Below, one piece after another: positions 52,680 to 64,000 of a stretch of DNA of 64,000 nucleotides. Position 1 is the first letter of the stretch, and each line of letters starts with the position of its first letter. The position numbers and the translations under genes were made by a program. Source of the stretch: Alcaligenaceae bacterium (GTDB lineage: Bacteria; Pseudomonadota; Gammaproteobacteria; Burkholderiales; Burkholderiaceae_B); NCBI GenBank assembly GCA_013416395.1, contig JACCEP010000003.1, positions 248,001 to 312,000 on the forward strand. The letters are read 5' to 3'. The notes beneath the pieces are model-generated. The model did not search any database and was not told the DNA's origin. It was given only the letters and a program-made list of their open reading frames with translations.

Positions 52680-55424
52680 TCATTGCCAGCCAAAGCGCCG
52701 AATGTAATAGCGCTTCATCAACGATGTCAGCACGACGTATCCGAGCACGATGCTAACAAGCCAGAAAAAATAGGGCCAGGGTAGCGCCTGCAGTTTAAAA
52801 TATTCTGCCATTGGCCCCATGGGTAGAAACACACCTATGGCCATGACGATCAGCGTCATGGCCATCAGGGGTGTCGAAGCGCGGCTTTCTATAAACGCGA
52901 CTTTTGGGGTACGGATAATATGTACGATTAATGTCTGCGTCAATAGGCCAACGACGAACCAGCCTGATTGAAACAGTGCCTGATGTTCGACGGTATGGGC
53001 GTTGAACACGTACCACATGACGGCAAACGTAACCAGATCAAAAATAGAGCTGAGTGGGCCGAAGAAAAGCATGAAACGACCAATACCATCAGGGTCCCAG
53101 GTTAATGGTTGGCTTACTTGCTCGGTATCCACGCTATCAAACGGGATGGCAATTTGTGAAATGTCGTACAGCATATTCTGCACCAGTAGCTGCAGCGGCA
53201 ACATGGGCAGAAAGGGTAGGGCAACGCTGGCAATCACTACCGAAAACACATTGCCAAAGTTGGAACTGGCCGTCATGCGGATGTACTTCAACATATTGTT
53301 GAATGTCTTGCGTCCTTCGATTACGCCTTCTTCCAGCACCATTAAGCTGCGCTCCAGAAGAATGATATCGGCAGCTTCCTTGGCAATATCGACAGCACTA
53401 TCAACCGAAATGCCAATGTCAGCGGCACGCAAGCCTGCAGCGTCGTTGATGCCGTCCCCCATGAAACCAACAACGTGGCCGTTGCCGCGAAGACTGCGTA
53501 CGATGCGTTCCTTGTTAAGCGGTGACAGTCTGGCAAAAATGGTGTTGCGTTCTACCGAGTCAGCCAGCGTTTCATCGTCCATGGCATCAATTTGCGTACC
53601 AAGAACCATCCCCCCGACAATCAGCCCAACCTGGCGGCACACTTCGGCAGCAACCAGTTCGTTATCACCCGTAAGTACCTTTACCGTCACACCATGAGCT
53701 GCCAGCGCCTCAAGCGCCGGCGCCGTAGACTCTTTGGGCGGATCAAGAAAGGCGATATAGCCCATTAGCGTCAGGCCCGATTCGTCGGCTTTTGAATACC
53801 TGAGCTGCTCCGGCGGGATCTCTTTCATCGCCACGGCCACCACGCGCAGCCCGCTTTCATTAAGCTGACGAAGCGCGATTTCTGAGCTTGCATGCCAGTT
53901 GGTGTCGAGCACATAGGTCTGGCCGTTGCAATACACGTGGGAGCACACATCAAACATTTCTTCGGCCGCGCCCTTGCAGATCAGCTCATGGTGGTCCTCA
54001 CGCTCTGACACAACGACCGACATTCGACGACGCTCAAAATCAAACGGGATCTCATCAATTTTGCGGTAGTTGCGCGCAATGTTCAGTTCGGTTTTTAATT
54101 CAACGTGTTCCAATACGGCGCGGTCGAGCAGGTTTTTAAGCCCGGTCTGGAAATGGCTGTTGAGATAGGCAAAACCCAGCACCTCGTCTGACTCTTGGCC
54201 GTCTACGTCTATATGACGGGCCAGAGCGATCTTGTCCTGCGTCAGCGTGCCGGTTTTGTCAGTACATAGTACGTCCATGGCACCAAAGGTCTGGATTGCA
54301 TCCAGCCGCTTGACGATCACTTGTTTGCGTGACAGCACCACTGCGCCGCGGGCCAGCGTTGATGTAACGATCATGGGCAGCATTTCGGGGGTTAGCCCGA
54401 CAGCCACCGACAGCGCAAACAGAAAGGCTTCGGGCCAGTTTCCCTTGGTAAAACCGTTGATAAACAGTACCAAAGGCACCATAACCAATGCGAAACGGAT
54501 CAGCAGCCAGCTGACTTTGTTTATGCCCAGCTGAAAGGCGTTGGCTTCTGCATCGGTCAGTGCCAGTGAAACCCGTGTGGCCAGGGTGCCAAAGTAGGTT
54601 TCATTACCGGTGGACAACACCACAGCTGTGGCGACACCTGAAATAACGTTGGTGCCCATGAACACCAGGTTGTTCATGGCGAGCGCCGAGTCAGATTCGG
54701 GGCCCGCCACAGAAAATTTTTCGACCGGCAGCGATTCACCCGTCATGGCCGATTGGCTCAAAAACAGGTCGGTGGCCGTCAAGATACGGCAATCTGCAGG
54801 GATCATATCGCCGGCGGACAGCACAACAATATCCCCAGGAACCAGTTGTTTAATGGGAATTTCAATGGGATCGTCGGCGCGATGTCGAGACTGCGCTTTG
54901 GGTGCGTCGTCGGTCGGGTCTACTGGCCTTTTGACACTGACCGTATTGCTGACCTGTTCTTTTAGCACCTGGGCAGCACGACTGGATCGCCGCTCCTGAA
55001 CAAACCGTATCAGTGTCGCCAGAAACACCATGCAGCAGATCACGATGGCAGCTTGTATATCGTGCGTAAGATACGACACAGCCGCAAGCAGAGTAAGCAG
55101 CAGGTTAAACGGATTTTTGTAGCTCAACCAGAGATGTTGCCACCATGGCACAGGGCGTTCGTGCTCGACCTCGTTGAGCCCGTATTTTTCACGCAATGCG
55201 TCGGCCTGGGGCTGCGTTAGCCCCTGGGGCGAAGTGCCCAACTGCTCCAGCAAGCCAGGCAGATCGCTACGCGCCTGCTCGACCAACCGGCGATTGAGCG
55301 TGCCGGAAAGCCGGACTGCACGCTTACTGCGTGACAGCGACTCGAGAATAACCTGGCGACGAAAAAGACTACGGCGGCGTCGTGATGCCAGGTATCGCTC
55401 AAAGTATTGGCTGAAAATGCTCAT
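52680..55424 (-). CDS. mgtA: Magnesium-importing P-type ATPase (type IIIB)
   Basis: This 914-residue membrane ATPase has the phosphorylation motif CTDKTGTLTQD (about residue 385), the actuator loop AMTGESLPVEK (about 220) and the hinge GDGINDAAGLRAADIG (about 660). The type IIIB pattern (long N-terminal cytosolic part, MTASSNFGNVFSV in the sixth span region) fits MgtA/MgtB. It imports magnesium from the periplasm at ATP cost. The 200-base leader toward arsB shows no obvious leader peptide or known magnesium sensor by eye. It is divergent from arsB. Confidence 0.9.
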   Translation of the reverse strand: MSIFSQYFERYLASRRRRSLFRRQVILESLSRSKRAVRLSGTLNRRLVEQARSDLPGLLEQLGTSPQGLTQPQADALREKYGLNEVEHERPVPWWQHLWLSYKNPFNLLLTLLAAVSYLTHDIQAAIVICCMVFLATLIRFVQERRSSRAAQVLKEQVSNTVSVKRPVDPTDDAPKAQSRHRADDPIEIPIKQLVPGDIVVLSAGDMIPADCRILTATDLFLSQSAMTGESLPVEKFSVAGPESDSALAMNNLVFMGTNVISGVATAVVLSTGNETYFGTLATRVSLALTDAEANAFQLGINKVSWLLIRFALVMVPLVLFINGFTKGNWPEAFLFALSVAVGLTPEMLPMIVTSTLARGAVVLSRKQVIVKRLDAIQTFGAMDVLCTDKTGTLTQDKIALARHIDVDGQESDEVLGFAYLNSHFQTGLKNLLDRAVLEHVELKTELNIARNYRKIDEIPFDFERRRMSVVVSEREDHHELICKGAAEEMFDVCSHVYCNGQTYVLDTNWHASSEIALRQLNESGLRVVAVAMKEIPPEQLRYSKADESGLTLMGYIAFLDPPKESTAPALEALAAHGVTVKVLTGDNELVAAEVCRQVGLIVGGMVLGTQIDAMDDETLADSVERNTIFARLSPLNKERIVRSLRGNGHVVGFMGDGINDAAGLRAADIGISVDSAVDIAKEAADIILLERSLMVLEEGVIEGRKTFNNMLKYIRMTASSNFGNVFSVVIASVALPFLPMLPLQLLVQNMLYDISQIAIPFDSVDTEQVSQPLTWDPDGIGRFMLFFGPLSSIFDLVTFAVMWYVFNAHTVEHQALFQSGWFVVGLLTQTLIVHIIRTPKVAFIESRASTPLMAMTLIVMAIGVFLPMGPMAEYFKLQALPWPYFFWLVSIVLGYVVLTSLMKRYYIRRFGWQ

Positions 55425-55623
55425 GGCGTCTTACCGATTGCAGAACATACATAACGGGCTGCACGCCGCTTGACCAAGAGGTGCAGCCCCTAGCTTACTC
55501 CTTACATAAGCGAATAAACCAGATCAAGCGCAGTACACTGCATGCGCTACTCTAAGGTACTCAATCAGGGCATCGTGTCATCTTCCAATTTGTTATCTCT
55601 AAATTAAACCAAGCTGCAACCCC

Positions 55624-56916
55624 ATGTTCTTAGCCTCCGCAATATTCATCCTGACCCTTATCTTCGTTATCTGGCAGCCGAAAGGATTGGGCATAGGCTG
55701 GAGTGCCAGCACAGGTGCCATACTGGCGCTCGTTACGGGTGTTGTTCACCTTGCCGATATCGCAGTGGTGTGGGGCATAGTCTGGAACGCAACAGCAACC
55801 TTTATCGCCATTATCATCATCAGTCTTGTTCTTGATGAAGCGGGCTTTTTTAAGTGGGCCGCACTTCATGTAGCGCGCTGGGGCAGAGGTAGCGGCCGAG
55901 CATTATTCGTGTTGCTGATCCTGCTGGGTGCCGCCGTTTCTGCATTTTTCGCCAATGATGGGGCGGCGCTGATTCTTACGCCTATTGTCATGGCTATGCT
56001 TCTTGCCCTCGGGTTTGGCCCCGCCGCCACGCTCGCATTCGTAATGGCTGCCGGCTTTATTGCCGACACGGGCAGTTTGCCTCTGGTTGTGTCCAACCTT
56101 GTAAATATCGTCTCGGTTGACTTCTTTAATATTGGCTTTAACCGTTACGCCGCCGTCATGGTGCCGGTAAACATAATCTCGGTGGTGGCCACCTTAGTCG
56201 TTTTACTGATCTATTTTCGAAAAAACATCCCACAACGTTACGAACCCGCTCTGGCTGGCGATCCCGCTACGGCCATACGCGATCCCCGAACGTTCAAGGC
56301 GGGGTGGGGCGTGCTGGCGTTGCTGCTGGTGGGGTTCTTTGCGCTTGAACCCCTTGGCGTTCCTATCAGTGCGGTGGCCGCCGCCGGCGCAGTCGTATTG
56401 CTCTTGGTGGCTGGACGCGGGCAGGTCATCAGCACGCGCAAGGTCGTGCACGAGGCACCATGGCAAATCGTGCTTTTTTCACTCGGCATGTATCTGGTGG
56501 TGTACGGCCTGCGCAACGCCGGGCTCACCGCCTATCTTGCCAACGTGCTGAATATAGTTTCAGACCAGGGGATTTGGGTCGCCACATTGGCCACCGGCTT
56601 GATTGCCGCTGCACTGTCGTCCATTATGAACAACATGCCTGCCGTTCTGGTCGGCGCATTGTCCATTGATGCCAGCCAGGCCAGTGGCGTAATCAAAGAA
56701 GCCATGATTTATGCAAACATCATCGGCAGCGATCTTGGCCCAAAATTTACGCCCATTGGCAGTCTGGCCACCCTGCTGTGGCTGCATGTGCTGCAAAAGA
56801 AGGGCACAACGATTTCCTGGGGCTATTACTGCAAAGTCGGCATAGTGTTGACCCTGCCAGTACTTGTGGCGACCCTGGCGGCACTGGCATTCTGGCTGAA
56901 CCGTATGCCGGTTTGA
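55624..56916 (+). CDS. arsB: Arsenite/antimonite efflux permease
   Basis: This 430-residue inner-membrane protein of the ArsB family has about twelve hydrophobic spans. Family segments are visible: [18 protein letters not shown] (about 98-115), [19 protein letters not shown] (about 143-161) and a late [20 protein letters not shown] (about 360). It exports arsenite, alone or with an ArsA ATPase. No arsR, arsC or arsA gene is next to it, so regulation is uncertain. The length is that of E. coli ArsB. The ribosome binding site before the ATG is weak. Confidence 0.88.
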
Positions 56917-57021: not shown

Positions 57022-58296
57022 ATGTTCTCGATCGGATTCCGACTCAAAGGTTTCAAACACGCTACGTCCATGAAAACCAACAGATCGCCTGACGAGCAAC
57101 ACTCTGCAACGACCAGCCGCATCGCCATGCGTTTCGTCTTGCTGATTGGCGTATTGAGCTTTTTCGCCGATTTTACGCATGAAGGGTCGCGCAGTATTTT
57201 GGGGCCATTTCTGGCTTCCATGCAGGCAAGTGCGTTTGTTGTCGGCGTGGTTACTGGCTTCGGTGAACTAGCAGGGTACGCCCTGCGTTATGTTTCTGGT
57301 CGCTTTGCCGATGTCACGGGTCGATTCTGGCCAACGGCAATAACGGGCTATGTGGTGCAGATGGCAGCTGTTCCGGCGCTGGCATTTACCCATACTTGGC
57401 AAAGCGCGGCTGTGTTCATCATCCTGGAAAGAGTAGGTCGTGCGATCCGCAATCCGCCCAGAGACGTCATGCTGTCGCATGCAGCCAAGCATATCGGTGG
57501 CTATGGCTGGACGTTCGGCATACACGAGGCCTGCGATCAGTTTGGTGCCATGTTCGGGCCTTTGGCAATGGCCGCTGTATTGTCCTATCACGGCACGTAT
57601 CAGTTGGCCTTTGCCGTACTGCTGATACCCGCCCTACTCAATCTTCTTTTTGTGTTTGTTGCGTACCGTCTATACCCTAAACCGCAAGAACTGGATGAGG
57701 ACATAACGCAGACAAGTACCAACCCTAAGCGTTTTTCAACTACGTTTTGGGTCTATCTGGCTGGTGCTTGCCTGGTGGCGGCTGGCTTTGCCGACTACCC
57801 GTTGCTGGCTTATCACTTTGCTCATACCGATGCCATGCCAGCCCCGTGGATTGCCGTGTTTTACTCGGTAGCCATGGCCGTCAGCGGTGCCTCGTCGCTG
57901 CTTTTTGGACGCCTGTTTGATCGCTATGGCTTTCGTGTGCTCATTGGCCTAACGCTGCTGGCCAGCCTGTTTGCACCACTGGTGTTTTTGGGTGGGGTTA
58001 AAACAGCGTTGCTCGGCGCGGCCATCTGGGGCATGGGCATGGGCGTGCATGAATCTATTATCCCCGCTGCCGTCACCCCCATGGTGCCCAGCCAACACCG
58101 TGCCACAGCTTTCGGGCTGTTTAGCGCTGGCTACGGCATATTCTGGTTTCTGGGTAGTGCAACCATTGGTTTTGTCTATGACAACTCAGTGGCCTGGACC
58201 ATTGTGTTTTGTGTTGTTACCCAGCTACTGGCCATTCCATTGTTCGCATGGGTGGGGAAGCGCCAACCGTGTAACACCCCCCCTGACGGAGCTTAA
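57022..58296 (+). CDS. Major facilitator superfamily transporter
   Basis: This MFS protein of about 424 residues has twelve predicted spans. The MFS loop 2-3 motif is degenerate: GRFADVTGRFWP (about 92-103). A second-half equivalent GRLFDRYGFRVLIG lies near 295. An RIAMRFVLLIGVLSFF start at about residue 34 marks the first span. An ATG at 57070 (MKTNRSPD) is an alternative start with no better ribosome binding site. It follows arsB by 105 bases and could be co-transcribed; a role in metalloid efflux is speculative. Confidence 0.82.
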   Translation: MFSIGFRLKGFKHATSMKTNRSPDEQHSATTSRIAMRFVLLIGVLSFFADFTHEGSRSILGPFLASMQASAFVVGVVTGFGELAGYALRYVSGRFADVTGRFWPTAITGYVVQMAAVPALAFTHTWQSAAVFIILERVGRAIRNPPRDVMLSHAAKHIGGYGWTFGIHEACDQFGAMFGPLAMAAVLSYHGTYQLAFAVLLIPALLNLLFVFVAYRLYPKPQELDEDITQTSTNPKRFSTTFWVYLAGACLVAAGFADYPLLAYHFAHTDAMPAPWIAVFYSVAMAVSGASSLLFGRLFDRYGFRVLIGLTLLASLFAPLVFLGGVKTALLGAAIWGMGMGVHESIIPAAVTPMVPSQHRATAFGLFSAGYGIFWFLGSATIGFVYDNSVAWTIVFCVVTQLLAIPLFAWVGKRQPCNTPPDGA

Positions 58297-58337: not shown

Positions 58338-58967
58338 CTAAATGGGCGTAAGGTTTTCTAAATGCGCAGTATCGTTAATGCATTCTACGGTGATCTTGCC
58401 CTCATGAATATCAATCTGGTTAATGCAGCAAGGGCTTTGCGCTACGCGCCAGTAGGCAGAAAGCGGTTGATCCAAAAGCTGGAGCAGAAGGGCGCGGTTT
58501 ACGCTGTCATGTCCGATGAGCAGGACGACGTCGGATTTATTCGGGTGGCGTTTCAACACCTCGCGCAAACCATCAGCCGTGCGCGCCACAAGATCCTGTA
58601 ATGACTCGCCCTCAGGAAAACGCAGCAGGTGTGGTGTGTTGTACCAACAGTTATACAGTTGTGGCCATTGTTTGCTGACGTCTACATGGGTTATGCCTTG
58701 CCATTGGCCATAATCAAGATCATGCAAGCCGCTGAGCACTTCGGATGAAAGACCCAGAGCCTGTGCAATGGGTGCGCCAGTAGCGATGCATCGGGCCATA
58801 GGGCTGGTATACAGTGCTACAGGCGCAAAGCGTGCGGCTACACGTTTGGCCAGTGCCTGGGCCTGACGCTCTCCCAGAGGGCTTAACGGCAGTTCGGCAC
58901 GCCCACGAAATCGCTCAGGATGTATTCCTTCAACATGGCCGTGGCGCATCAAAACAAGTGTGGTCAT
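58338..58967 (-). CDS. Histidine phosphatase family protein (phosphoglycerate-mutase-like)
   Basis: This 209-residue branch-1 histidine phosphatase has the phospho-histidine motif LMRHGHVEG at residues 6-14 and the second catalytic His in LLIGHDSVNRALL (about 150). The sequence between (FRGRAELPLSPLGERQA and LYTSPMARCIATG) is as in CobC/GpmB-like phosphatases. It is convergent with the MFS gene and 69 bases from the DUF190 gene. The substrate is not assigned. Confidence 0.88.
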   Translation of the reverse strand: MTTLVLMRHGHVEGIHPERFRGRAELPLSPLGERQAQALAKRVAARFAPVALYTSPMARCIATGAPIAQALGLSSEVLSGLHDLDYGQWQGITHVDVSKQWPQLYNCWYNTPHLLRFPEGESLQDLVARTADGLREVLKRHPNKSDVVLLIGHDSVNRALLLQLLDQPLSAYWRVAQSPCCINQIDIHEGKITVECINDTAHLENLTPI

Positions 58968-59035: not shown

Positions 59036-59359
59036 TTAATCAGCATCGCCTATAACACCGAACTCCACGGGCGATTTGGCGTAAAACAAGTGAAGATCGG
59101 CTTCGGCACGCAATCGCGCCATAAGATCATCGCACTCGGCATTGGTCACGACTACCGTAATCTCAATCGGCTGGTCTGCCAAGTCAAAAAACCTGGCGGA
59201 ATGAAGCTTATGGTGGCTGCCCAACCCCTCTTGCGCGGCTGTCATGGTGGCGCCCCGAATGCCCATCGTCCGTAAAAGCTCCATTAGCCATTGATGGAGT
59301 GGGTGATGGCCGTGATGGCGGTCTTGTTGGGTAAAAAACGTGACTTGATAGCCTGTCAT
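59036..59359 (-). CDS. DUF190 protein
   Basis: This 107-residue soluble protein of the DUF190 family is commonly encoded beside crcB. A PII-like alpha/beta fold is suggested by the alternating pattern (VTFFTQQDRHHGHHPLHQWL, then MGIRGATMTAAQEGLG, then PIEITVVVTNAE). AAGGAG lies 8 bases before the ATG at 59359, and the gap to crcB is 16 bases, so the two form one transcript under a fluoride riboswitch. Function is unknown; a regulator or accessory of the channel is possible. Confidence 0.88.
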   Translation of the reverse strand: MTGYQVTFFTQQDRHHGHHPLHQWLMELLRTMGIRGATMTAAQEGLGSHHKLHSARFFDLADQPIEITVVVTNAECDDLMARLRAEADLHLFYAKSPVEFGVIGDAD

Positions 59360-59375: not shown

Positions 59376-59759
59376 TTAACGACTGAATAACGCCTGCACA
59401 ATGGTAATGCCGAGAATAGTCAGTGCAATGGAGCCCATGACATGCAGGCTTATTCCAATTGCTGCACTTGCCAACTCACGGTTCAAGATCATGGCGCTCA
59501 TTTCTAACGAAAATGTAGAGAAGGTTGTCAGCCCACCCATAAACCCAGTAATTACAGCAAACCTAAACTCAGGAGCAAGCCCACTGTGTCGGGTGAGTAA
59601 TTCACTTGCCACACCAATTAACAGACCGCCTATCAGGTTCGCCGCCAATGTGCCTAGCGGTAGCGTCGGCCAAATGGAGTTTAAGCCCATGCCCAATACC
59701 CATCGCAATAAAGCTCCCAATGAAGCCCCAACGGAAATTGCAAGGATTGCGCTTAGCAT
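59376..59759 (-). CDS. crcB: Fluoride channel (Fluc/CrcB)
   Basis: This 127-residue four-span membrane protein has the CrcB signature NLIGGLLIG (about residue 40) and GGLTTFSTFS (about 73-82), which line the fluoride pore and the central Na+ site. The family forms antiparallel dimers that let fluoride leave the cell. The 5' leader on the same strand contains a fluoride riboswitch about 170 bases upstream. DUF190 follows in the same transcript. Confidence 0.95.
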   Translation of the reverse strand: MLSAILAISVGASLGALLRWVLGMGLNSIWPTLPLGTLAANLIGGLLIGVASELLTRHSGLAPEFRFAVITGFMGGLTTFSTFSLEMSAMILNRELASAAIGISLHVMGSIALTILGITIVQALFSR

Positions 59760-59906: not shown

Positions 59907-59990
59907 GCCTACAACCCTTGTGCCAGGGGTCTGTAGGCATCATTAATTGACGTTTGCCAATGGTTAAAGGAGGAATGCCATCTCCGTGTT
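59907..59990 (-). ncRNA. Fluoride riboswitch (crcB motif) upstream of crcB
   Basis: On the minus strand the aptamer reads GGAGATGGCATTCCTCC, then TTTAACC, a small ATTG/CAAT stem and AATGATGCCTACAG. This matches the fluoride aptamer: the GGNG/CNCC helix, GATGG, and the 3' ATGA...CC helix partner. Directly after it, GCCTACA (59932-59938) can pair with TGTAGGC (59907-59913), with ACCC/GGGT inside. That hairpin and the 3' side of the aptamer exclude each other, as in the described Bacillus example. There is no T tract, so the platform may not be a simple terminator. A promoter lies 6 bases upstream. Confidence 0.93.
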
Positions 59991-59991
59991 C

Positions 59992-60020
59992 AGTGTAACA
60001 AGCGCACAAAGGCCTCGCAA
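59992..60020 (-). promoter_or_regulatory. Promoter of the crcB riboswitch transcript
   Basis: On the minus strand TTGCGA (60015-60020) and TACACT (59992-59997) are 17 bases apart. Transcription would begin just before or at the aptamer. The same hexamer pair (TTGCCA, TACACT) drives the opposite riboswitch. Confidence 0.65.
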
Positions 60021-60164
60021 CCGTTTCACGTATATTCAGCCGTGCAACGCGGCAGTATCCGCAACTCAGTGATGCAGCACAAACCACTTCGATAGATCGC
60101 CCACATCGCCAAGTGGGACATTTTTGTTTAGCTTTTTTCGTGTCTCTAGGTTCTGTGCCGGGTA

Positions 60165-60192
60165 TTGCCAAAAACACCCATAGGCGTACACT
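60165..60192 (+). promoter_or_regulatory. Promoter of the hyf-like riboswitch transcript
   Basis: TTGCCA (60165-60170) and TACACT (60187-60192), 16 bases apart, place the start point at about 60198, at the first bases of the aptamer. The -10 is identical to that of the divergent crcB promoter. Confidence 0.65.
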
Positions 60193-60197
60193 ACTTA

Positions 60198-60282
60198 CAA
60201 GGAGATGGCATTCTTCCTTTAACTGCCTCTATCGGCTGATGATGCCTACCAAACAATTCCTGTATTGCAGGAAAGAGTTGGT
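60198..60282 (+). ncRNA. Fluoride riboswitch upstream of the hyf-like operon
   Basis: The aptamer reads GGAGATGGCATTCTTCC, then TTTAAC, a short GCC/GGC stem and TGATGATGCCTACC (to 60250). It is nearly identical in core to the crcB-side copy, but the P3 stem differs, so it is not a simple recent duplicate. Just downstream ACCAAAC (60248-60254) can pair with GTTGGT (60277-60282), around a perfect TTCCTG/CAGGAA hairpin. That structure overlaps the aptamer's 3' end and lies next to the start of a 37-codon frame. A protein complex operon follows, not a fluoride exporter. Confidence 0.92.
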
Positions 60283-60289
60283 GGTGCCA

Positions 60290-60403
60290 ATGACAAAAAA
60301 GACAATAACTCCTCCTTTGGCCACTTGCCGTAGCACTCGCTACTTTCGGGCTGCGGTACACATGGCGGCGCTGCGTGTTCTACCGTTGCGCAGCGAGCGC
60401 TAA
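60290..60403 (+). CDS. Possible 37-codon leader reading frame ahead of hyfC
   Basis: An ATG at 60290 opens a 37-residue basic peptide (MTKKTITPPLATCRSTR...) that ends 12 bases before the hyfC start. Its stop overlaps the hyfC ribosome binding site (TAAGGAG). A possible Shine-Dalgarno, TTGGTGG, lies in the 3' arm of the riboswitch hairpin, so its translation could be controlled by fluoride and passed on to hyfC by coupling. No family was recognised, and it may be non-functional. Confidence 0.3.
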   Translation: MTKKTITPPLATCRSTRYFRAAVHMAALRVLPLRSER

Positions 60404-60415
60404 GGAGCGAGCCTA

Positions 60416-61357
60416 ATGCGCGACATCCTGCTCCAAATTGCCCAGGTTGCCACGGTTCTCCTTCTATCTCCATTGTTGCAAGGCATTATTGTGCAATGGG
60501 ACGAACGTGTACAACGTGCTCAAGGTCCGGGCATTTTTCAGCCATATCGCGATTTATGGAAGCTTTTTCATAAGCAACAAGTCGTGCCCGAGACAGCCAG
60601 TGTTATTTACTGGTTGGCGCCCATCGTCGCGTTTACCTGCATGCTGACGGTGCCTATTCTTATTCCGGTGTTAACCAATTACCCGTTGCCGGCTTCAGAC
60701 ATGGGCGATATTTTGGGTGGTGGCCTGATCCTCACGTTGGGCGCCTTCATGATCACCTTGGCAGGATTGGATTCAGGCAGTGCCTATGGGGGCATAGGTG
60801 CTTCGCGATCAGCCATGCTGGTTATTCTGGCAGAACCTGCACTTATTCTGGTATTTGTCGGCATTACGCTGCTGGCCAAATCCATGTTGCCTTTTGTGGT
60901 CAATCATTTACTTGTCCAACAGCCCGAGGTGTATTGGAGCCCGGCTCATCTGTTTCTGGTCGCGGCTTTCTTTATTCTTCTGCTGGTCGAGACAGACAGA
61001 CTGCCTATTCATTCCAGTACGCACATTGAAGTTTATATGATCGAGGAGGCACGCATTCTGGAGTATTCGGGCCCGCTGCTCGCCTTGCTGAAATGGGCCT
61101 CCATGATGAAGCAGGTCATTTTCTATATCTTGTTCTGCAATGTTCTGGTGCTGCCATGGGGGCTTTCCTATCGTGGCCAGGTTCTGGGTGTTCTGGGTGC
61201 ACTGCTTGCTCTCTTGCTGAAATTTATGGTTGTTGCGCTTGCTGTGGTGTTTGTGGAAACCGCACAGGCGCGCTTGCGCTATTACCGTTATCAAGAACCC
61301 CTGGCTGCCTCGTTTCTTTTGGCGGTCCTGGCCATTGTCGCTAACCAATTAAGGTAA
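60416..61357 (+). CDS. hyfC: Hydrogenase-4/formate-hydrogenlyase-type membrane subunit (NuoH-like)
   Basis: This 313-residue membrane protein of the HyfC/HycD/NuoH family has about eight spans. Visible are GIFQPYRDLWKLFHKQ (residues 40-55) and, after the fifth span, LLVETDRLPIHSSTHIE, the NuoH-like acidic loop that contacts the soluble arm. It anchors the catalytic part to the membrane in complex-I-related machines. AAGGAG precedes the ATG. It is the first complex gene of the operon and is followed after 5 bases by hyfE. A fluoride riboswitch lies in its leader. Confidence 0.9.
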   Translation: MRDILLQIAQVATVLLLSPLLQGIIVQWDERVQRAQGPGIFQPYRDLWKLFHKQQVVPETASVIYWLAPIVAFTCMLTVPILIPVLTNYPLPASDMGDILGGGLILTLGAFMITLAGLDSGSAYGGIGASRSAMLVILAEPALILVFVGITLLAKSMLPFVVNHLLVQQPEVYWSPAHLFLVAAFFILLLVETDRLPIHSSTHIEVYMIEEARILEYSGPLLALLKWASMMKQVIFYILFCNVLVLPWGLSYRGQVLGVLGALLALLLKFMVVALAVVFVETAQARLRYYRYQEPLAASFLLAVLAIVANQLR

Positions 61358-61362
61358 GCATT

Positions 61363-62043
61363 ATGCTGGCTGCGCAGTTACCCCCGCTGGCTGCCTCACT
61401 TTTCAGCTTATTGGCCATAGGCAGCTTGCTATTGGCGTTTGTCATGCTGGGTTCACGGTGGCTCAAAGATTATTTAATGGCTTTTGCCGTGCAATCCTGG
61501 CTAATTGCGCTACTTTCAGCCGCCATTGGCTATTACGGGCACTTTACCGAACTGTATCTGATCGCGATCCTGACCGCTGTGTTTCGAGGCGTCATCCTGC
61601 CATGGATGATTTTACGGGTCGTCGATCGCCTGGAGGTCGATCGCGAGTTACACGAACGTCTGTCACCCAGCACAAGTCTGGTGTTGGGCGGTCTGCTCAC
61701 GCTGTTTGCGTTTGTGGTGTCCACGCATCTCGCACAATCCCTGGACCTTGGCGGCACCGTTGCCGTGCTGGCGCTTACCGTCATGCTATCCATGAAGCTA
61801 ATTGGGTTCCTGATGCTGGCAGTACGTGGCGAAGCGGTCAGCCAAGTGCTTGGGCTATTGGTATTGGAAAACGGCATTTTCCTTGGTAGCCAAATCCTCG
61901 TACCTGGCATGCCTTTATTGATTGAATTGGTCATTCTGTTTGATTTGCTAGTCGTCGTGGCCTGTTTTGGCATTCTGGTGCGCTATCTGGCCATGCACGC
62001 AGGGGCAACCAATGCGCGCGCTTTACGCAGGCTGGTGGGCTGA
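61363..62043 (+). CDS. hyfE: Hydrogenase-4 component E-like membrane subunit (NuoK/J-like)
   Basis: This 226-residue membrane protein of the HyfE family has about seven spans; a NuoK-like core contains LGLLVLENGIFLGSQIL (about residues 162-178), with the conserved Glu in the membrane. In Hyf it combines features of complex I small subunits. It ends in a one-base overlap with hyfF (TGATG), indicating coupled translation. Confidence 0.88.
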   Translation: MLAAQLPPLAASLFSLLAIGSLLLAFVMLGSRWLKDYLMAFAVQSWLIALLSAAIGYYGHFTELYLIAILTAVFRGVILPWMILRVVDRLEVDRELHERLSPSTSLVLGGLLTLFAFVVSTHLAQSLDLGGTVAVLALTVMLSMKLIGFLMLAVRGEAVSQVLGLLVLENGIFLGSQILVPGMPLLIELVILFDLLVVVACFGILVRYLAMHAGATNARALRRLVG

Positions 62044-63542
62044 TGTTACTAACATTGGTGCTTATCATTCTTCTTGCTCCCATCGCCGTCGTTCTGGCTT
62101 GCCTTGTAGTACGCCGTCCCCGACCTGCTGAGTTCCTTAACCTGGTGGCAGCTATCGTGGTGTTCTTGGCCGTACTGCGGTTATTGCCAGAGAGTCTGGA
62201 TGGACCCCATTATTTCTGGCACGGCTATCTCATCGTGGATCCCTTAGGTGCCTGGGTTCTGCTATGCGTCTCCAGCGTCTATCTGTTGGGTTCGATCTAC
62301 GCCATTGGCTATATGCGTATTCTCAATGAAGACAGGAGGTTGCATCGGTTTTATGCACTTTATGCAGGCTTCGCACTCACCACGTTGACCAGTCCCATTA
62401 TGAATAATGCGGGGGTTTATTGGATCGCCATCGAGCTGACCACATTGGTTTCCACGTTTCTTGTCTGCTTTGAGTTGGGCCGCGAAAGTATTGAGGCTGC
62501 CTGGAAGTACATCGTGGTTGTTTCGGCCGGCATCAGCTTGGCGCTTTTGGGCACCGTACTTTATTACTGGGGCGCCAGCCTGATATTAGGCCCAACCTAC
62601 GATATGACGTGGGCAACCCTAAGAGCGGCGGCGCCACGCATGAACCCAGCTATCAGCATACTGGCGTTTCTGCTCGTCGTTGTGGGGTTCGGCACCAAAG
62701 TTGGGCTTGCACCCATGCACACCTGGTTGCCTGATGCCCACAGTGAAGGGCCAACGCCCGTGTCGGTCATGCTCTCGGGTGCCTTGCTTAACACGGCGAT
62801 GATTGGTATTGCCCGCTATCTGCAAATTAGCGATGCTGCACATATCGGCCTGCTGCCACGTGCGCTGGTTGTTGTGCTGGGCGCTACATCACTGTTTGTA
62901 GCTGCACTGTTCATTGTGCGCCAAACAAATATCAAACGGCTTATGGCCTATTCCAGCATTGAGCATATGGGCATACTGGCGCTGGGCTTTGGCTTCGGTG
63001 GGCCACTGGGTGTGGCGGGCGCACTCTATCACATGCTAAATCACTCACTGAACAAGTCACTCATGTTTTTTGGGGCAGGCAATGTCATGCGTGTTTGGGG
63101 AACCAAGAAAATCAGAGCCATACACGACGTGCCACGTCGCCTTCCAGTTTCTGGCTGGCTGTGGTTGGCCGGCGCCGTGGCCATTACCGGCGCTCCACCT
63201 TTTGCCCTTTTTTTAAGTGAAATCGTCATATTGCGCGCTGGTTTGAACACACCGTTTGTGTGGGCCGTATTTCTGATGGCGCTCTTGTTAATCGTTATCT
63301 TTATCGGCTTTCTGAACCATTTTCGTGCTCTTTTCTTTAGTCCTGTTCCTGAGAGGTTTTCAGAAGACTCAACGTTAAGAAACAAGTCTGCCGCACCCGA
63401 TGGCTTTCCTACGGTGTGGTGCACCTTGCCCATGTGGCTGGCCTTGATCCCCCTCCTAATTCTGGGCTTTTGGTGGCCCGACTTTTTCACCCGTTTTTTT
63501 GCTGCTGTAGCAGCCAGCTTGAGCGCGGGAGGCACACCATGA
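62043..63542 (+). CDS. hyfF: Hydrogenase-4 component F-like antiporter subunit (NuoN/M-like)
   Basis: This 499-residue protein of the proton-antiporter-like family has about fourteen spans and key family segments: the Glu region IAIELTTLVSTFLVCFELGR (about 125-144), APMHTWLPDAHSEGPTPV (about 222-239) and IKRLMAYSSIEHMGILALG (about 295-313). It would be the ion-pumping subunit. Only this one antiporter-like subunit is in view; HyfB and HyfD counterparts are absent between the riboswitch and hyfG. The stop overlaps hyfG (ATGA). Confidence 0.9.
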   Translation: MLLTLVLIILLAPIAVVLACLVVRRPRPAEFLNLVAAIVVFLAVLRLLPESLDGPHYFWHGYLIVDPLGAWVLLCVSSVYLLGSIYAIGYMRILNEDRRLHRFYALYAGFALTTLTSPIMNNAGVYWIAIELTTLVSTFLVCFELGRESIEAAWKYIVVVSAGISLALLGTVLYYWGASLILGPTYDMTWATLRAAAPRMNPAISILAFLLVVVGFGTKVGLAPMHTWLPDAHSEGPTPVSVMLSGALLNTAMIGIARYLQISDAAHIGLLPRALVVVLGATSLFVAALFIVRQTNIKRLMAYSSIEHMGILALGFGFGGPLGVAGALYHMLNHSLNKSLMFFGAGNVMRVWGTKKIRAIHDVPRRLPVSGWLWLAGAVAITGAPPFALFLSEIVILRAGLNTPFVWAVFLMALLLIVIFIGFLNHFRALFFSPVPERFSEDSTLRNKSAAPDGFPTVWCTLPMWLALIPLLILGFWWPDFFTRFFAAVAASLSAGGTP

Positions 63543-64000
63543 GCGAGACACCTATTGAAGACCTTGATATTGAACAGCTGCGCGCACGCTGTCAGCAACT
63601 GGTAGAGCAGGGCGGTCATCTGGAGTTCGCTTACGCGTGGTTTCCTGAAGAGGCCGACAAGCCCGAAGTTCGATACATCGTTCACCCAGCGTCATCCGCA
63701 GGTTTGCAGATCTGGCGCTGCCATCCAGGCCAGGGCGCTATTCCGAGTCTTGCTGACATAGCTCCTCTCGTGTCCTGGTATGAGCGTGAGATAAGCGATA
63801 TGTGCGGAGTACGTTTCGAGGGCTACTCTGAAGCCGTGCCACTTGTATTTTTACCGGGAACACATGTATCTGCTCCAGTGCTGAATGCAGCAGGTATTGA
63901 CCCGGTGCTTCAGTACGAACCATTGGCTTACGAGCTACCGCAAATTGGCGGGCCAGATCGCGACGACATTCAGGTACTGCCTTTTGGCCCCGTGCGTGCT
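63539..64000 (+). CDS. hyfG: Hydrogenase large-subunit-like protein, N-terminal part (HyfG/HycE family), cut by window end
   Basis: The first 154 residues are the complex I 30-kDa-like domain of HyfG/HycE, with WYEREISDMCGVRFEGYSE (about residues 80-98). The start of the 49-kDa/large-subunit domain follows (QVLPFGPVRA at the very end). The nickel-iron cysteine motifs that decide whether this is a true hydrogenase or an Ehr-type complex without a metal site lie beyond position 64000. The gene overlaps hyfF by 4 bases and continues off the window. Confidence 0.88.
   Translation, partial: MSETPIEDLDIEQLRARCQQLVEQGGHLEFAYAWFPEEADKPEVRYIVHPASSAGLQIWRCHPGQGAIPSLADIAPLVSWYEREISDMCGVRFEGYSEAVPLVFLPGTHVSAPVLNAAGIDPVLQYEPLAYELPQIGGPDRDDIQVLPFGPVRA

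Follow-up and report, generated by a model that had tools for sequence, protein, structure and literature searches.

This analysis concerns two fluoride riboswitches, and the membrane complex encoded behind one of them, in a window of 64,000 nucleotides (nt) from an Alcaligenaceae bacterium (G000:C33:248001-312000, where G000 is the window's own genome, 99.99% complete). What lies at this locus? A cmscan of the whole window against Rfam returned two matches above cut-off, both to the fluoride riboswitch family RF01734 (cut-off 34 bits) and both covering model positions 1-64; no other Rfam family rose above its cut-off. One aptamer lies on the minus strand before crcB (59927..59994; 46.0 bits, E 1.5e-9) and the other on the plus strand before hyfC (60192..60255; 49.8 bits, E 8e-11). 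The two are divergent, with a gap of 197 nt, and the pseudoknot GGCAU/AUGCC can be read from the sequence of both. By covariance score they are predicted fluoride riboswitches, which would bind fluoride and switch expression of the genes behind them. An earlier note on this DNA had described two fluoride aptamers facing apart and proposed scoring both leaders with Rfam; its coordinates and gene calls were correct, and the right-hand copy stands well over the cut-off.

On the minus strand, the left aptamer leads into crcB, which encodes a fluoride channel (Fluc) (59376..59759; PF02537 84.8 bits, cut-off 32.9; NCBIfam PRK14196 CrcB 146.6 bits, cut-off 125), and then into a DUF190 gene (59036..59359, with an ATG at 59359 and the frame open to 59401; PF02641 61.7 bits, cut-off 23.4). 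On the plus strand, the right aptamer stands 160 nt before the start of hyfC (60416..61357), which encodes a membrane subunit of the NuoH/Nqo8 type (PF00146, E 5e-37) with Glu205 and Glu216 conserved in the clade described below. There follow hyfE (61363..62043), a membrane subunit with no match in the Pfam scan and an NCBIfam hydrogenase-4 membrane subunit score of 47.2 bits, below the cut-off of 136; hyfF (62043..63542), an antiporter-like membrane subunit (PF00361, E 6e-50; NCBIfam hydrogenase 4 subunit F 359.7 bits, below the cut-off of 610); and hyfG (63539..64000, continuing past the window to G000:C33:313032), which encodes a large subunit without nickel ligands. These Pfam and NCBIfam matches confirm the gene orders crcB-DUF190 and hyfC-hyfE-hyfF-hyfG that had been read from the open frames. 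The remainder of the operon lies on the interval L004 (G000:C33:307000-324000; window position = L004 position + 58999), where hyfG occupies L004:4540-6033 and is followed by hyfHI (L004:6043-6858), a two-cluster ferredoxin fused to a 20-kDa subunit, by the antiporter-like hyfB (L004:6851-8836), matched like hyfF by an NCBIfam hydrogenase-4 model below its cut-off, and by a CNNM/CorC gene (L004:9016-10332). The full order is hyfC-hyfE-hyfF-hyfG-hyfHI-hyfB, six proteins, with the CNNM/CorC gene after them.

What kind of complex would these proteins form? HyfG contains the Pfam domains Complex1_49kDa (PF00346), NiFeSe_Hases (PF00374) and Complex1_30kDa (PF00329), and its best solved relative is HycE of the E. 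coli formate hydrogenlyase (PDB 7z0s, E 6.9e-46). At the four nickel-binding Cys columns of HycE, the window HyfG has Ser, Gly, Thr and Gly. HypD is required for building the Ni-Fe site, and a search for it (PF01924) that detected the E. coli positive control gave no match in the window's genome. Because the nickel ligands are absent and HypD is unmatched, the complex, as far as its sequence tells, is not a hydrogenase. No formate dehydrogenase or HycB-like gene was recognised among the operon frames of L004, ten of which were Pfam-scanned, the rest of the genome lying outside that search; nor is the NADH module (NuoE, F, G) among the operon frames. The predicted proteins instead fit the description of an energy-converting-hydrogenase-related (Ehr) complex, namely a nickel-less group-4-like large subunit with Mrp-like antiporter subunits, in line with the Hyf/Ehr-like identity first proposed.

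Does the arrangement recur? In a set of 61 genomes, the window's own plus 60 of the same genus, family and order, RF01734 matched in 14, and hyfC follows in four: the window's genome, Candidimonas humi (G033), Eoetvoesiella caeni (G019) and G045, where it stands behind crcB-DUF190. A wider scan of genome contigs with a four-row HyfG alignment gave at least 590 pattern matches, 517 of them confirmed, of which the best 80 were kept (L036-L115); these were picked by likeness to the window HyfG via two conserved peptides, and farther Ehr groups lie outside the sample. Two operon orders occur among the loci, one with hyfC first and one with hyfB first. A quick, single-gene maximum-likelihood tree was built from 92 large subunits. 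The 58 rows with the hyfC-first label form one clade in it (SH-aLRT 99), seven nickel-less hyfB-first rows are its sister (95), and 19 hyfB-first rows bearing CxxC fall outside. The clade persists when the motif columns are removed together with four rows that are long or truncated (56 rows, SH-aLRT 98). The 26 hyfB-first rows were split by the presence of both CxxC motifs, 19 with and 7 without, so that the Cys found in 19 of 19 holds by construction, and those 19 are not claimed to be working hydrogenases; L082 and L110 were grouped with the hyfB-first rows by likeness. The order labels are partly default, since hyfC lies off the contig in nine clade rows (L046, L051, L061, L070, L088, L090, L101, L105 and the second L054 operon); in all of these but L090, HyfHI is followed by hyfB or a hyfB-like gene. 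An antiporter-like gene directly follows HyfHI in 46 of 50 clade loci and was not seen in L049, L073, L089 and L090.

Beyond the window, the named phyla of the clade are Pseudomonadota, Actinomycetota, Acidobacteriota, Myxococcota, Thermodesulfobacteriota, Dormiibacterota, Nitrospirota, Chlamydiota, Lentisphaerota, Planctomycetota and Verrucomicrobiota, with four rows lacking a named phylum; in the Chlamydiota and Planctomycetota rows the contig does not include the leader. Metagenome bins are common among the records, and single odd placements may be binning errors. The CxxC nickel pair is found in none of the 58 clade large subunits, three rows having a single Cys at one column. The former ligand columns hold Ser 28, Ala 17, Glu 8, Asn 3, Cys 1 and Thr 1 (column 1); Ser 20, Ala 14, Thr 12, Gly 8, Val 2 and Cys 2 (column 2); Ser 47, Thr 9, Ala 1 and one gap (column 3); and Glu 41, Gly 16 and one gap (column 4). 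HypD was matched in 13 of the 29 clade genomes searched and not in the other 16 (the window's and 15 others); it is a weaker marker than expected, for 6 of 11 hyfB-first genomes were also without a match. Indeed L055, L092 and other hyfB-first loci have both CxxC motifs, yet their genomes show no HypD match.

Two further observations concern the sampled loci as such. Tandem pairs of different fluoride-clade Ehr operons, one of the window type and one of a commoner type, occur in L048, L050, L062 and L109 (Acidithiobacillus) and in L078. A second nickel-less Ehr group, from Acidobacteriota (L040, L042, L047, L067, L094 and L110), has hyfB first where this is seen and a shared SGDN / SYSGCDR pattern (L110 is cut before the second motif), with no fluoride switch in the locus.

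How often does the hyfC-first clade carry a fluoride switch? The whole genomes of the loci were searched with RF01734 and the hits mapped, and coordinate hits without the 3' tail of the aptamer were dropped as coming from other contigs. The leader could be read for 49 clade operons: the window, L034 and 47 in genome-contig loci, of which L048, L050, L062, L078 and L109 hold two each. RF01734 matches at or above its cut-off in 34 of these leaders and below it in seven, while six carry an Actinomycete variant recognised by eye and two have none. The seven below the cut-off have aptamer sequence in the right place (L043 26.3, L049 25.8, L064 31.1, L069 24.5, L091 28.0, L100 30.2 and L102 24.0 bits). 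The two operons without an aptamer are the second tandem operons of the near-identical Acidithiobacillus records L050 and L109, whose first operons have one; the four Acidithiobacillus first operons overrun the ends of their loci, and their leaders, scored separately, reach 48.7 to 55.1 bits. In L034 a single switch stands ahead of crcB-DUF190-hyfC, in L087 the switch is followed by a DUF190-like gene and hyfC, and the second L062 operon has it 828 nt upstream of hyfC. Seven named phyla supply leaders above the cut-off (Pseudomonadota, Myxococcota, Acidobacteriota, Thermodesulfobacteriota, Nitrospirota, Lentisphaerota and Verrucomicrobiota); the two Dormiibacterota leaders score under it, and the six Actinomycetota leaders are all variants. 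The association between fluoride switch and hyfC-first operon is thus close to clade-wide in the sample, and the recurrence suspected in the earlier note, which had suggested searching the leaders of such operons, is borne out.

No such association was seen in the comparison groups, within the loci covered. None of the 24 hyfB-first operons with hyfB on the locus (L082 and L110, with hyfB off the locus, being excluded) has a switch in the locus, which in three of them (L053, L083 and L095) extends less than 500 nt before hyfB. Ten of the 24 genomes have an RF01734 match elsewhere, two of them only below the cut-off, and in the L040 genome a match of 60.4 bits lies on the same-numbered contig about 9.5 kb past HyfHI, just beyond the locus. 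Fisher's exact test for 34 of 49 against 0 of 24 gives 3e-9, although the rows are related and the tree weighs more than the p-value. Similarly, in an independent sample, the HyfC protein of the Acidobacteriaceae record L079 was searched in 247 genomes of its phylum and matched 22 at E 1e-40; beside the centre itself these comprised four loci at 68 to 74% identity and 19 at 34 to 42%. RF01734 lies above cut-off upstream of hyfC in all four close loci (36.8 to 44.9 bits) and upstream of hyfC in none of the 16 distant loci run (L166, L168 and L169 were not), the leader before hyfB being off the locus. In all 19 distant loci hyfB precedes hyfC, and L164 has its best HyfC score with the clade by a small margin (191 to 187 bits). 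Likewise, among 29 further HyfC-like loci of Pseudomonadota, hyfB stands just before hyfC in 28 (the short L127 is the exception), and L133 ties between clade and sister by best HyfC score. No motif was seen near hyfC in these controls (Rfam run on 20 of the 29, the pattern on all 29), whose loci stop short of the hyfB start and so do not cover the leader.

The leaders also agree in structure. Over 44 leaders (those counted above minus the four Acidithiobacillus first operons, with one leader present twice, as L033 = L056), the P1 loop and the 3' tail form 219 of 220 standard pairs in the pseudoknot, against a mean of 181 and a maximum of 196 when the tails were re-dealt 2000 times; the loop register was the one that paired best, a choice that favours the observed set. 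Double changes preserve the pairing, as in GGAGU/ACUCC, GGCAU/AUGCC, GAGGC/GCCUC, GAAGU/ACUUC and GGCUU/AAGCC. The six Actinomycete leaders, read by eye before hyfC at L054:3932, L065:2396, L086:6583, L103:5316, L106:6617 and L107:6452, contain an RNA that resembles the fluoride aptamer but has an insertion and an altered pseudoknot (GAGGC/GCCUC and similar). Rfam scored four of them at 19.6 to 21.6 bits and found nothing in the other two up to E = 5. The exact variant pattern occurs in one of 396 genomes of a phylum sample, the centre itself, and in four of nine genomes already in hand, each time before hyfC. We count these leaders apart, as an apparent variant class that may sense another ligand. 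In one of these Actinomycetes a selenocysteine tRNA gene (L086:6443-6534) ends about 50 nt before the variant hyfC aptamer.

What might serve as the expression platform of the window's aptamers? The minimum-energy fold of 60192-60430 (z-score -1.46) contains a predicted hairpin on the plus strand (60244..60287) in which the 3' end of the aptamer (GCCUACCAA) pairs with the downstream UUGGUGGUGC. This hairpin is a possible, weak candidate for the expression platform; its anti-aptamer pairing, read by eye, is not conserved in two close Candidimonas relatives. The left leader has a fold z-score of -0.10, and a simple scan found no intrinsic terminator 3' of either aptamer on its own strand. A leader peptide (60290-60403) coupled to hyfC was also considered and was dropped, as the leader is not conserved in the two Candidimonas relatives.

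Which parts of the complex has the clade kept? Clade rows were aligned to the E. coli Nuo, Hyf and Hyc subunits and checked at residues that have roles in proton movement. In HyfB, E128, K211, H339, K343 and E398 are each present in 44 of 44 clade rows. In HyfF, K219 (59/59) and E393 (60/60) are invariant among ungapped rows, and E131 is kept in 50 of 57 (4 Asp, 3 other). In HyfC, E205 and E216 stand in 44 of 44 ungapped rows and E140 in 42 of 43. The ligands of the iron-sulphur (Fe-S) subunit, for which there are 54 clade rows, are more variable. In the 52 rows counted for the terminal cluster, two gapped rows being excluded, four Cys remain in 29, three in 14, one in 2 and none in 7. All eight ferredoxin Cys together with four terminal Cys are found in 7 of the 54 rows, the window's nearest kin, which we call the window type; a further 21 rows have one ferredoxin cluster and a full terminal cluster. 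Most other clade rows keep ferredoxin Cys 4 to 7, which we take, by the rule for two-cluster ferredoxins, to be the set that forms one cluster.

The Fe-S ligands are decaying, and at least two lineages of the clade have lost the terminal cluster. The Castellaniella and Eoetvoesiella rows have no ferredoxin Cys and one of four terminal Cys, with frames open throughout. Their RF01734 matches (48.1 and 49.0 bits) lie 48 nt before hyfC, the checked charged residues of HyfB, HyfC and HyfF are retained, and over five genes dN is 0.04-0.16 against a dS of 0.46-0.73 (HyfHI 0.155 against 0.475), calculated on frames that overrun the true starts. Seven Actinomycete rows have none of the four terminal Cys and keep one ferredoxin cluster.

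What might such a complex do for a cell exposed to fluoride? We think it fairly probable that it is a fluoride-induced, Ehr-type ion-translocating complex that guards pH and the proton-motive force, and that in some lineages it is perhaps not redox-driven; its induction by fluoride, its transport of ions and its role in pH and proton-motive force are each inferred from sequence. We propose that fluoride binding to the leader RNA would turn the operon on in parallel with the CrcB channel. Hydrogen fluoride (HF), a weak acid, would bring protons and fluoride inside and dissociate, and CrcB would return the fluoride ion outward, so that each cycle would drain the proton-motive force and acidify the cytoplasm. 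HyfF and HyfB, which are antiporter-like, and the HyfC channel would then move protons, or other cations against protons, and restore both. The window's organism has ligands for three [4Fe-4S] clusters, and its complex may be electron-driven, with donor and acceptor left unspecified. Since at least two related lineages no longer have the terminal cluster, the job common to the clade seems not to need electrons at the old active site. The electron drive may accordingly vary by lineage, being possible in the window's organism and not available by the known route in the Actinomycetes, Castellaniella and Eoetvoesiella. With its pair of antiporter-like subunits, its HyfC channel, its conserved charges and its lack of catalytic ligands, the complex fits the Na+/H+ antiporter class better than formate metabolism. 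The earlier note had offered two roles. Restoration of ion balance is the one favoured here; the replacement of a fluoride-inhibited magnesium- or phosphate-dependent enzyme is not supported, there being no catalytic ligands at the old Ni-Fe site and the operon otherwise encoding Fe-S and membrane subunits.

Several observations weigh against this proposal or narrow it. The window's copy itself keeps eight ferredoxin and four terminal-cluster Cys, and because of this a redox function is quite possible in its organism, with a partner enzyme that may be coded elsewhere. At the column of NuoM Lys265, none of the 59 ungapped clade rows has Lys (Thr 21, Asn 17, Ser 14, Ala 7; the window has Asn, as does E. 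coli HyfF). At the NuoH columns Glu36, Glu216, Glu218 and Asp295 the main clade residues of HyfC are not acidic, and the column of NuoH Asp213 holds Asp 34, Glu 6 and His 4, that is, 40 of 44 acidic, with His in the window. The charges that are conserved are common to complex-I relatives generally and indicate neither the ion nor its direction. L063, a nickel-less hyfB-first operon from an archaeal bin outside the clade, has lost the terminal cluster too. The HypD matches in 13 of 29 clade genomes presumably serve other hydrogenases. Finally, the hairpin offered as the expression platform is a weak candidate.

What would drive the complex is the point on which the nearest alternatives divide. 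It could be a redox-driven proton pump, passing electrons from a ferredoxin-like donor through the Fe-S clusters to an unspecified acceptor and exporting protons as an extra coupling site under fluoride. The complete set of ferredoxin and terminal Cys in the window and in 7 of 54 clade rows, with 21 more rows that have one ferredoxin and the full terminal cluster, is what such a pump would need; against it stand the full loss of the terminal cluster in seven Actinomycete rows and its near loss in two others, with the switch or, where leaders are readable, its variant retained, and the lack of any partner enzyme recognised beside the operons. We regard this pump as a genuine possibility on which we lean towards doubt. 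Alternatively, the entire fluoride clade might be an ion-gradient-driven, Mrp-like antiporter independent of redox chemistry, in most members of which the Fe-S wire is a leftover. Such a transporter would explain why terminal Cys are down to one in 2 and none in 7 of 52 rows, why the Fe-S-poor Castellaniella and Eoetvoesiella operons keep their switch, their checked charges and a dN well below dS, and why the former nickel-ligand columns are variably filled with no single new motif. However, 43 of 52 rows keep three or four terminal Cys and most keep one ferredoxin cluster, ligands that selection would hardly retain unused; moreover, the loss in two lineages may reflect a lineage-specific change of function, and L063, outside the clade, has lost the cluster too. 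We consider the redox-independent antiporter somewhat unlikely as an account of the whole clade. Only tentatively would we entertain the corresponding history, in which what had been a redox enzyme became, across the whole clade, an ion transporter for fluoride defence, its hydrogen site lost throughout, its electron wire fading and its ion core kept, with Castellaniella, Eoetvoesiella and the Actinomycetes driven by ion gradients without electron delivery to the old site.

Two other explanations fare considerably worse. Direct fluoride export, in which the complex would couple proton movement to the expulsion of fluoride or HF, has nothing direct in its favour beyond the linkage to crcB (as in L034, where crcB-DUF190-hyfC share one switch) and the fact that the clade is dedicated to fluoride switches; its channels are of the proton or cation pump type, no anion site was identified in them, and crcB is already present in the same island here, so that we think export very improbable. 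A literal formate hydrogenlyase or other [NiFe] hydrogenase, as these genes are named in the literature, is suggested by the match of HyfG to HycE and by papers that list formate hydrogenlyase behind fluoride switches. This candidate was rejected on the missing nickel ligands (no CxxC pair in 58 clade rows), the lack of a HypD match in 16 of 29 clade genomes, the window's among them, and the absence of a formate dehydrogenase or HycB-like gene among the window's operon frames; it is almost certainly wrong. A fluoride-induced ion-translocating complex that guards pH and proton-motive force is the reading we prefer.

The operon belongs to a larger fluoride island. A third aptamer, with the best score of the genome's three (58.7 bits), lies on the minus strand about 12.5 kb further along (G000:C33:320801-320865; L004:13802-13866) and heads a pair of MutS-domain genes that face back (L004:10536-13729); a HIT gene, an enolase gene and a second DUF190 gene are divergent from them. 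The open frames surrounding 52 clade loci and 26 hyfB-first ones were clustered; on the clade side the families included enolase, CrcB and DUF190-like genes (8 loci each) and MutS-like genes (7 loci, plus one hyfB-first locus). A dynamin-family GTPase adjoins clade operons in 8 loci, including L041, L069, L077, L079, L087 (PF00350) and L089, and no hyfB-first locus. No formate dehydrogenase or other redox partner was recognised among neighbour families found in at least four clade loci; unlabelled families were judged by eye and not profile-scanned, and several large ones are antisense frames.

Beyond the DUF190 gene, on the crcB strand, the window has a histidine-phosphatase-family gene (58338-58967; PF00300), and similar genes adjoin crcB-DUF190 in Candidimonas. 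The window also has a major facilitator superfamily transporter gene (57022-58296; PF07690); Candidimonas, Eoetvoesiella (L032), L091 and L107 have homologues of 56 to 63% identity in their fluoride islands. Adjoining the island (52680-56916) are genes for a magnesium P-type ATPase and for an ArsB-type permease; together with the CNNM/CorC gene after hyfB, they raise a possible magnesium-fluoride link. In Eoetvoesiella caeni, nine RF01734 matches, eight above cut-off, are gathered within about 22 kb (G019:C10:36802-59119).

How does this relate to what has been published? The primary surveys of the fluoride switch are said to be Weinberg 2010 and Baker 2012. Formate hydrogen lyase is named among fluoride-switch genes in the parts consulted of PMC8004769 and PMC11139923, which agrees with the genome surveys mentioned in the earlier note. 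In its consulted part, PMC11139923 interprets the switch-linked genes as formate metabolism, and places Na+/H+ antiporters, tied to pH balance, as the switch-linked class next most common after exporters. The association of switch and formate hydrogenlyase genes is therefore already in print, whereas the non-hydrogenase nature of the complexes was not found there: no description of them as nickel-less or as a fluoride clade turned up, a weak negative given that subscription literature lay mostly outside the search, and the only paper found to contain both "fluoride riboswitch" and "hydrogenase" was PMC12595759, which in the part seen deals with E. coli and per- and polyfluoroalkyl substances. 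For Ehr complexes, the accessible portions of PMC6349859 and PMC10284858 call the function unknown (so PMC10284858) or suspect a formate dehydrogenase partner, and that of PMC6349859 suspects charge translocation coupled to a redox reaction. A nearly clade-wide fluoride switch offers the first physiological handle, namely fluoride, on one large Ehr clade. It also corrects, at least within the clade members sampled, the formate hydrogenlyase reading given in the consulted part of PMC11139923. Should the Fe-S-poor members prove active, they would show in nature how a complex-I machine moves ions with its redox part disconnected, a central question for the family.

Finally, the system can be set beside its known relatives. 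The Mrp Na+/H+ antiporter is a complex-I relative that moves ions without redox chemistry; it shares the antiporter-like fold and has no peripheral arm, whereas the 49-kDa-like HyfG and 20-kDa-like HyfHI are kept here. Unlike respiratory complex I, the window operon has no NADH module among its frames. With the E. coli Hyc and Hyf complexes it shares the subunit types B, C, E, F, G, H and I and several membrane-arm charges, but it lacks nickel ligands, has H and I fused and hyfB last instead of first, and HycB and FdhF were not seen. The leaders have the same aptamer as the fluoride riboswitch of crcB (RF01734), with the full model matched above cut-off and the pseudoknot present; the right-hand target, however, is a membrane complex and not an exporter, and the six Actinomycete leaders fall below the Rfam cut-off. 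Like the fluoride-resistance operon of Enterobacter cloacae FRM, as given in the consulted part of PMC5533749, the locus is a fluoride-switch island with crcB, enolase and helper genes, and the text of that paper contains neither "hydrogenlyase" nor "hydrogenase". The closest likeness is to the Ehr complexes, which in the accessible portions of PMC6349859 and PMC10284858 have the same nickel-less group-4-like large subunit adjoining Mrp-like antiporter subunits; this clade is set apart from them by its own gene order, its fluoride switch and its members without the terminal Fe-S cluster.

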